A stretch of DNA of 64,000 nt from Acidobacteriota bacterium. Lineage in GTDB: Bacteria; Acidobacteriota; Terriglobia; Terriglobales; Acidobacteriaceae. Below the pieces are notes generated by a model, which worked only from the letters and a program-made list of their open reading frames with translations, had not been told where the DNA came from and searched no databases. Below, in pieces: positions 13,869 to 15,742 of this stretch; position 1 is the stretch's first letter, and each line of letters begins with the position of its first letter. The position numbers and the translations under genes are program-made. The stretch spans positions 62,001 through 126,000 of the forward strand of contig JAJYVF010000014.1 in NCBI GenBank assembly GCA_021792135.1, given 5' to 3'.

Positions 13869-14609
13869 ATGCACGATCCATCGCCTCCATCCATCGCGGC
13901 GCCGCGCAGCCGTTTCGCATCCACCGTCGCTCCGTGGTGGCATGCGGGGCTGCTGATCCTGCTGCTCGTCGGCGTCTCTGCGCTCAGTACTCGCCAGGCG
14001 CATCGCCAGGGAATGAGCGCCCACCACGCCGAGCGCTACCTCGTCGGCATGGCCTTTGAGTGGGTCATGCTGCTGCTCGTCTGGTGGGGTCTGCGCATGC
14101 GCCGCGTCTCGCTCGCGGAGATCATCGGCTTTCGCCGCGGCCCGCGCGCCTTCGCTGAAGATCTCGCCGCCGCGGCGATCTTCTGGATCATGGCCATGAT
14201 CGTCCTTGCAGCCATCGGCATTCTGCTGAAGCTTCTGCATTTCTCTGCACCCCAGAGAACGCTGGCCGCGCTCGCCCCCGGCACGCCGCTCGAGATGCTG
14301 CTCTGGATCGCGCTCAGCCTCTCCGCGGGCTTCTGCGAGGAGACTCTCTTCCGCGGCTACTTCTTCCGTCAGTTCGCATCCGCCGGTCATCGCATCTGGA
14401 TCGGCGTCGTCATCTCTTCGCTGCTCTTCGGCATCGGTCACGGATACGAAGGCGCCGCCGGTATGATCGCCATCGCCGCATTCGGCGCGCTCTTCTGCGC
14501 GCTGGCCCTGGCCCGCAACAGCCTTCGCCCCGGCATGATCGCGCATGCCTGGCACGACATCTTCACCGGAGTCGCGCTCGCTCTCCTCCATCGGACTCAC
14601 CATTTGTGA
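13869..14609 (+). CDS. CPBP family intramembrane metalloprotease
   Basis: A 246-aa membrane protein with several transmembrane segments. The diagnostic glutamyl motif is [11 protein letters not shown] (EExxxR), followed by the [11 protein letters not shown] helix and IAHAWHDIF, which supply the His ligands of CAAX/ABI-type intramembrane proteases. The ATG at 13869 has AAGG 6 nt upstream. It is divergent from the thiolase gene. Substrates are unknown; some bacterial homologues process bacteriocin-like or prenylated peptides, and nothing here points to one. Confidence 0.86.
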
Positions 14610-14682: not shown

Positions 14683-14711
14683 TTGACACTCATTCGGCGG
14701 AACTCTATACA
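14683..14711 (+). promoter_or_regulatory. Consensus sigma-70 promoter of the Lys/Ala peptide gene
   Basis: TTGACA (14683-14688) is separated by exactly 17 bp from TATACA (14706-14711). The surroundings are unusually AT-rich for this genome. This is the best match to a housekeeping promoter in the window and points to strong expression starting near 14718. Confidence 0.85.
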
Positions 14712-14719
14712 TTCGTTAA

Positions 14720-14759
14720 CTGCAACATTTATGTTGCAGACTTCGATGTGAACATCGAA
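14720..14759 (+). promoter_or_regulatory. Tandem leader hairpins ahead of the Lys/Ala peptide gene
   Basis: Two perfect inverted repeats lie between promoter and ribosome binding site: CTGCAACAT/ATGTTGCAG with a 2-nt centre (14720-14739), and TTCGATGT/ACATCGAA with a 2-nt centre (14742-14759). In RNA they form two adjacent hairpins at the 5' end, which could stabilise the message or gate access to the AGGGAG at 14761. As DNA the first could also be an operator just downstream of the start site. Confidence 0.7.
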
Positions 14760-14776
14760 AAGGGAGAATAGAAAAA

Positions 14777-14845
14777 ATGGCAACCAAAAAGGCAGCTAAG
14801 AAACCGGCGAAGAAGGCAGCAAAGAAGACCGCGAAGAAAAAGTAA
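14777..14845 (+). CDS. 22-residue lysine/alanine-rich histone-tail-like peptide
   Basis: A tiny gene with every expected signal: consensus promoter, AGGGAG ending 10 nt before ATG, and a strong terminator 20 nt after TAA. The peptide has 11 Lys, 7 Ala, 2 Thr, 1 Pro and the initiator Met, arranged as repeated AAKK/PAKK units like the tails of eukaryotic histone H1 and bacterial H1-like proteins. At roughly +11 charge it would bind DNA, RNA or polyphosphate without needing a fold. Bacterial H1-like proteins are normally much longer, so this is a tail without a body. Function is inference; expression is strongly suggested by the flanking signals. Confidence 0.75.
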   Translation: MATKKAAKKPAKKAAKKTAKKK

Positions 14846-14865
14846 GCCATCCACGGCAACACCAC

Positions 14866-14898
14866 GGGGGGACGCGACGAGCGTCCCCCCGCTGCTTT
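14866..14898 (+). terminator. Rho-independent terminator of the Lys/Ala peptide gene
   Basis: A perfect 10-bp stem, GGGGGGACGC/GCGTCCCCCC, with a 5-nt loop (14866-14890) is followed by GCTGCTTTT. It lies 20 nt after the stop codon of the 22-aa gene, so the transcript would be about 180 nt long. Confidence 0.85.
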
Positions 14899-15010: not shown

Positions 15011-15742
15011 GTGACACGCCGCCGCTGGATCGCCGATACCTGGGATGAAGCCACGGCCTCGATTGCCGGCAATCAGGCGGCACATCTCATCCGCGTGCTG
15101 CGCGCGCAGCCGGGAATGGAGTTCGATATCGTCGCCGGTGGGCGCGTCTGGCACAGCGTCCTCGCCGGCATCTCGGGCGACGAGGTCCGCTTCAATCTCA
15201 TCGCTGAAGTCGAAGCCGAACCCGCGCTGCCCGTCACGCTGCTTCTCTCCGTCTTCAAATTTGATCGTATGGAATGGGCGATCGAGAAAGTTACCGAGCT
15301 GGGAGCCGACTGCGTCGTGCCCATCCTCGCCCGCCGCAGCGACAAGCATCTGGTTCAGGCCGCGGCCGCGCGCACGGAGCGCTGGCGTCGCCTCGCACGC
15401 GAAGCCTCAAAGCAGTCCCGCCGCTCCGATGTTCTGCGCGTCGAGGATCCGGAGCAGCTCAGGACTGCGATCCGGCGCAGCGAAAATGCTCTTCGCCTCG
15501 TCCTTGCCGAGCAGGAGCGTTCCACGACTCTGCACCGCGCCCTCACCGAGGCGCTGGCTGCGGCCGGCGACGAGGTGCCGCCCATCCTGCTCGCGGTGGG
15601 ACCCGAAGGCGGCTGGACGGCCGAAGAAGAAGGTCTGTTCGACGCGGAGAACTGGAAGCCGGTCAGCCTTGGCCCGCGCATCCTGCGCGCGGAAACCGCC
15701 GCCATCACCGCGCTGGCTGTAGCCGCGGCTCTGCTCGAATAA
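15011..15742 (+). CDS. rsmE: 16S rRNA (uracil(1498)-N(3))-methyltransferase
   Basis: A SPOUT-class methyltransferase that methylates U1498 of 16S rRNA in the 30S subunit. It is 243 aa. An N-terminal PUA-like domain (HLIRVLRAQPGMEFDI) is followed by the knotted domain with KFDRMEWAIEKVTELG, LAVGPEGGWTAEEEGLF and the C-terminal LGPRILRAETAAI, all characteristic of RsmE. GTG start at 15011. It converges with dnaJ, 81 bp away. Confidence 0.95.
   Translation: MTRRRWIADTWDEATASIAGNQAAHLIRVLRAQPGMEFDIVAGGRVWHSVLAGISGDEVRFNLIAEVEAEPALPVTLLLSVFKFDRMEWAIEKVTELGADCVVPILARRSDKHLVQAAAARTERWRRLAREASKQSRRSDVLRVEDPEQLRTAIRRSENALRLVLAEQERSTTLHRALTEALAAAGDEVPPILLAVGPEGGWTAEEEGLFDAENWKPVSLGPRILRAETAAITALAVAAALLE

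Follow-up and report, generated by a model that had tools for sequence, protein, structure and literature searches.

A candidate dual-function RNA encoding a histone-H1-tail-like mini-polycation in Acidobacteriota

We analysed 64,000 nucleotides of an Acidobacteriota genome (hereafter the window) and found that a 216-bp unit in it is a real gene, with its own promoter and intrinsic terminator, both predicted from conserved sequence. Comparison of relatives established this, along with selection on the peptide and on the leader hairpin and, in genus g79, conservation of the RNA where the ORF is missing. The reading that explains the data best, to which we give a probability of roughly 55%, is that the gene is monocistronic and nearly always single-copy in the window's class of Acidobacteriota, and that its product is a dual-function RNA, both the mRNA of a mini-polycation resembling a histone H1 tail and a small RNA.

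The unit lies on the + strand, and most of its parts are as an earlier note on this DNA had described them. The -35 box TTGACA (14683..14688) stands 17 bp before the -10 box TATACA (14706..14711), as claimed; the description as a consensus promoter holds for TTGACA only, since TATACA agrees with TATAAT at 4 of 6 positions and has A as its final base, and because of this imperfect box a stricter promoter scan of the window did not list the unit's promoter. Both perfect 5' hairpins were found again, hairpin 1 at 14720..14739 (a perfect stem, by RNA fold and covariation) and hairpin 2 at 14742..14759 (a perfect stem in the fold, missing in L020, L021 and L023). Next comes AGGGAGAATAG (14761..14771), ribosome-binding site and conserved RNA motif, which has one exact match in the window's own genome. 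Reading the sequence confirmed AGGGAG (14761-14766) and the 22-codon ORF (14777..14845), whose product MATKKAAKKPAKKAAKKTAKKK has 11 Lys and 7 Ala; across the six frames of the window, the ORF is the sole place with at least 7 Lys per 20 residues. The GC terminator is likewise present as an intrinsic stem-loop at 14865..14891, with 11 pairs including 10 G-C; the T tract after it, CTGCTTTT, is modest. In relatives the stem-loop keeps its position with compensated stem changes; taken alone it is unremarkable, as the window has 2 terminator-like sites versus 1.2 expected in shuffles. The 183-nt RNA has a predicted fold of -62.7 kcal/mol (z = -5.33; 0 of 200 shuffles as stable) in which the stretch from GGGAG to the ATG is unpaired, and the unit would be transcribed as an RNA of ~180 nt. 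Outside the unit, both on the + strand, are genes for an Rce1-like membrane protease upstream (13869..14609; PF02517) and an rRNA methyltransferase downstream (15011..15742; PF04452), which we take to be of the RsmE type (rsmE) and whose strand and distance vary in relatives.

From a DNA search of 100 relatives, we read 30 loci, the window's own included, and found the full promoter-leader-ORF unit in 29; the remaining locus, L032, has a longer AAKK gene that lacks the leader. Hence, conservation of the whole unit in 29 of 30 loci excludes a chance origin, and with the coding statistics below it agrees with the earlier proposal of a complete unit encoding an H1-tail-like peptide. The same search matched 67 of 100 genomes, which is not a count of units as many of the matches fall in longer genes and cover just their AAKK stretch. 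When the 29 units were aligned, CTTGAC, TATAC and AGGGAGAATAG were invariant, and the promoter spacer and hairpin arms varied.

The pattern AGGGAGAATAG-N0-9-ATGGC was found in 209 of 298 genomes of the order, in 56 of 70 genera, compared with 2 of 298 genomes for the reversed pattern; the 209 are pattern matches, part of which were read, L055 being a chance match among those read. Two matches occurred in 8 of the 209. A second, divergent copy (L207) was seen in a draft genome of the window's genus (G001, contig C75), and it may come from a contaminating contig. Scanning named genomes gave at least 117 loci; among the matches listed, all 80 titles were Acidobacteria or subgroups of them, including Terracidiphilus, Occallatibacter savannae and Paracidobacterium acidisoli.

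A covariance model of the leader was run on 250 genomes sampled from the class and matched 69, of which 12 lie outside family f1. All 12 were read as short polycations, as were the units read in f2. Outside f1, the unit was thus read in families f2, f3, f5, f6 and f8 of the class; the peptides there range from 11 residues (MAAKKKAKKKR) to 25, and in f9 (G095) there is a 19-residue peptide with no recognised leader. Spread beyond the class was not borne out: a pattern search, which is less sensitive than the leader model, gave 4 matches outside, of which the 3 read (L338-L340) fall within unrelated reading frames and are due to chance, and the fourth is that of G656. Across much of an order of soil bacteria, and in further families of the class, the unit turns up roughly once in a genome; such a gene is shorter than most gene callers report.

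In the literature covered, outside which most subscription journals lie, we found nothing on this gene; two papers with similar letters concern, by title, Leishmania epitopes and designed antimicrobial peptides. Scans of Rfam 15 with the window unit and eight related loci (E up to 1) gave nothing at gathering score, and the four weak matches were all below it (best E 0.015, sX6 on L289). The 22-residue peptide had no Pfam or NCBIfam match.

For coding statistics we used 145 full ORFs from 151 distinct pattern units, leaving out three cut by the locus end (L100, L153 and L162), one with an N (L115), the chance match (L055) and one with a stop at codon 4 (L146). These ORFs have 12-30 codons, 53% Lys and 33% Ala, and after the start one residue in all falls outside K/A/T/S/P/G/V/H. 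The K/A frame is kept in 145 of 145, the amino acids staying constant while third positions vary; the other two frames translate to R/Q/P or E/K/G/S and contain 13 and 44 stops. Comparing ORFs of equal length, we found in-frame pN/pS of 0.27 (15 codons), 0.16 (22), 0.20 (23) and 0.06 (27), versus at least 0.83 in shifted frames. By these codon comparisons, translation of the ORF and selection at the protein level are strongly supported.

The share of GCA among Ala codons of the unit ORFs falls from 59% at codons 3-8 to 22% past codon 15, compared with 9% (20 of 212) in six window genes; at codon 2, GCA is biased by the patterns used to fetch the loci. An early GCA preference is expected of an open initiation region, and a reason at the RNA level is possible.

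Over all units read, the peptide has 11-32 residues; it shows the Lys/Ala-rich repeats of H1-like composition and is neither a long protein nor a tail beside a separate domain. The L146 unit has leader, motif and terminator, and its stop at codon 4 is either a recent loss or a sequencing error. Elsewhere in the window's own genome, the protein encoded directly before rpsC (L003, ~1015-1551, contig C47), by its position probably uL22, ends in a peptide-like AAKK-type tail, ...KKPAKKAAAKKTAKK. A frame of ~190 codons (L002, ~1262-1831, contig C64) is acidic towards the N terminus and carries a long AAKK stretch towards the C terminus; it is a conventional H1-like gene alongside the mini-gene.

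The leader shows selection of another kind. For hairpin 1, 92% of cells are paired in the 29 units, and 25 cells changed on both sides, a number that none of 500 shuffles reached (mean 7.1, sd 2.1); sliding the partners by 1-3 columns gave 5-9 double-changed cells. By this covariation, leader hairpin 1 is a selected RNA structure. The earlier suggestion that a structured leader stabilises or regulates the mRNA is upheld as regards a selected structure and is probably too narrow, since leader and motif are kept where the frame is broken.

We found such broken frames by running the leader model on 77 genomes, namely 76 f1 genomes lacking the pattern and G333, whose pattern match was taken for chance. 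The model matched 52 of the 77 and gave no leader match in 25. Reading the 52 matches, we found 12 coding units with a variant motif and 40 units with neither a start codon nor a Lys-rich frame (13 in g32, 19 in g79, 3 in g44 and 5 in g34). The promoter is retained in nearly all 40 (the -10 box is altered in G158 and G171) and hairpin 1 in most, and a perfect stem of at least 10 bp lies within ~170 nt in 37, the exceptions being two g32 units and one g34 unit. The exact AGGGAGAATAG is retained in parts of g32, g44 and g34; the non-coding variants are AGGGAGAGTAG in part of g32, AGGGAGAACCAG in G247, TGGGAGAATAG in G212 and GGGAGCGCAGG in g79. In G265 the motif is CAGGGAGAGTAG by reading, the script having picked wrongly. 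Translation of the non-coding forms from another start was considered and rejected: any frame within 110 nt of the 40 units has at most 4 Lys per 10-codon stretch versus 4-8 in 12 coding units, ranges that touch at 4. The earlier note had set a conserved frame and an ncRNA against each other, to be told apart by comparing hairpins, frame and start; both occur, the frame being kept in most genomes read and broken, with leader and motif kept, in g32, g79, g44 and part of g34.

We placed 30 genomes, 16 coding and 14 non-coding, on an rpoB tree. It requires at least 4 changes of state, each forced by well-supported branches, and grouping the non-coding genomes in one clade was rejected (p-AU 1.2e-45). 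Since regain of a homologous MATKKAAKK frame is unlikely, we read these changes as losses, the peptide having been lost four or five times and the RNA kept, in a sample whose ascertainment favours retention because losses of the whole unit are not visible to a leader search. Recent decay is possible in the non-coding lineages other than g79, and the strong signal of an ORF-free RNA comes from g79 alone.

In g79, a non-coding 22-nt core, GGGAGCGCAGGCAAACGCAACC, is identical in 26 of 28 genomes and in all 19 whose completeness is 90% or more and whose contamination is 5% or less. The fourfold sites of the adjacent rsmE have a mean identity of 41% over 153 pairs of 18 genomes (those of the 19 in which the script found the rsmE start), and the flanking intergenic DNA aligns poorly in the portion compared. 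Hence, judged by this contrast between core and rsmE, the RNA is functional in g79 independently of the peptide. The g79 units share no reading frame, a one-base indel splitting members between frames of differing length. The RNA of G191 folds with z = -7.13. For the consensus fold, 17 of 19 units were aligned (G158 and G171 were excluded for their altered -10 box), and compensated changes occur in 8 of the 34 predicted pairs, most of these in the terminator and hairpin 1; covariation contributes little to the fold energy (-0.72 kcal/mol). Since the g79 core GGGAGCGCAGG differs from AGGGAGAATAG, g79 could have newly gained this RNA function. In 8 genomes of the genus, we counted 68 sites for an 11-base sequence complementary to part of the g79 core, 8 of them being the gene itself, versus 25 for the reversed pattern; the excess possibly represents targets or codon bias. 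Thirty of the 68 complement sites in g79 are L367-L396.

If the RNA has two functions, the ~180-nt transcript would serve as an mRNA translated from the open AGGGAG site into the mini-polycation, a peptide comparable to a histone H1 tail detached from the rest of the protein, which presumably binds DNA, RNA or polyphosphate by its charge rather than by fixed residues. The 5' hairpin, the single-stranded AGGGAGAATAG stretch and the terminator would provide a second, peptide-independent role, most likely that of a trans-acting small RNA, perhaps with Hfq, which would have been kept through at least some four peptide losses. Transcription, abundance, the peptide's ligand and the RNA's partner or target are what we infer. 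The weakest step is to extend RNA function to the window's own genome, beside the peptide. Repeated retention of AGGGAGAATAG supports this extension, and the ascertainment bias and the 25 of 77 genomes with no match weaken it; in coding lineages, AGGGAGAATAG may serve above all as a ribosome-binding site. More tentatively, and with the odds somewhat against it, dual function may be class-wide, combining a stand-alone polycation as short as 11 residues with an ancient core riboregulator that outlives it, the peptide perhaps acting on the RNA's partners, e.g. by condensing RNA or polyphosphate together with Hfq.

Hfq-family matches were found in 10 of 10 genomes searched and CsrA matches in 0 of 10. 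Titration of CsrA through AGGGA is therefore unlikely, and an Hfq-type small RNA would be the likelier role. Two or more stretches match the Hfq family in eight of the 10 genomes, the additional matches being weaker and lying in frames 95-244 codons long; G042 and G044 have one each.

The most serious alternative, which we consider possible while doubting it, is that the RNA is a conventional message for a very small basic protein, in which the hairpin does no more than protect or tune the mRNA, AGGGAGAATAG is simply a strong ribosome-binding site and the non-coding forms are relics or, in some genera, ncRNAs newly recruited once the peptide had gone. The coding signature of the 145 ORFs, the open initiation region with its A-rich early Ala codons and the separate core variant of g79 all fit it well; it accounts poorly for a leader and GGGAG motif that persist in four non-coding lineages, with the exact AGGGAGAATAG in parts of three, and for strong selection on the g79 core where there is no frame. 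At the opposite extreme, the RNA would be purely non-coding and the Lys/Ala frame a by-product of a purine-rich, T-poor linker. Although the ORF is T-poor and ORF-less lineages exist, this is very improbable, and for coding lineages we reject it on the codon statistics and in-frame pN/pS: third positions vary under constant amino acids, the K/A frame never breaks in the 145 and the other two frames collect stops.

Another alternative concerns the ligand, the peptide being an extra basic element associated with the ribosome or rRNA rather than a nucleoid or polyphosphate binder. The putative uL22 of the same genome carries the same type of tail, but a peptide ranging over 11-32 residues is too variable in length and sequence for one buried in the ribosome, and the adjoining rsmE is not constant; we regard this as unlikely, and it can be combined with the dual-function reading. 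Least credible of all is a Lys-rich leader peptide of an attenuator controlling the next gene. Eleven Lys codons before a terminator would suit it, as would rsmE, which in most loci that show it follows in the same orientation after 143-454 nt, many loci being too short to show it. However, rsmE is not a lysine gene; six loci (L022, L028, L029, L030, L084 and L148) have it on the opposite strand at 226-294 nt, and in nine others, whose peptides mostly end in KKH, the rsmE match is likewise on the opposite strand and begins ~3-7 kb off. Since the downstream gene varies between lineages, the attenuator is rejected; the unit stands alone and has no fixed downstream gene.

Related genera in which this locus either has or lacks the peptide provide a natural experiment by which genetics can separate the function of the RNA from that of the peptide, and the gene raises the question of the minimal size of a polycation that selection still keeps.

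Among known systems, SgrS/SgrT of enteric bacteria, as described in the portion of PMC4021124 consulted, is likewise a short RNA with an intrinsic terminator, a small ORF and a nearly invariant stretch (~13 nt in SgrS), and its ORF is missing from some species, in which the 5' end is truncated or the start codon altered; we claim no homology. The present unit resembles it in having a predicted promoter and terminator, a selected small ORF and an RNA conserved apart from the ORF, seen in the non-coding lineages and presumed in the coding ones. Unlike SgrT, a transporter inhibitor, the peptide here is a Lys/Ala polycation, the conserved stretch lies upstream of the ORF, and the likeness rests on sequence rather than on a base-pairing target. 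The dual-function RNA VcdRP of Vibrio cholerae also combines a very short ORF (29 residues) with a conserved single-stranded stretch; according to the sections of PMC8672173 used, its ORF and pairing sequence are conserved in all tested species, whereas the ORF here was lost in several lineages. Acido-1 (RF01686) and Acido-Lenti-1 (RF01687) are, like this unit, candidate structured RNAs reported from Acidobacteria (PMC2864571, in excerpt), and both were absent from our Rfam scans of the window unit and eight related loci at E up to 1. On the peptide side, the H1-tail-like Lys/Ala/Pro repeats recall AlgP and PhaF of Pseudomonas (PMC9239181, in excerpt) and Hc2 of Chlamydia (PMC2848022, in excerpt). 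In these excerpts, AlgP is reported to bind DNA and to associate with polyphosphate granules; it has 352 residues with an N-terminal domain, and Hc2 has 165-237 residues, whereas the product here is complete in 11-32.
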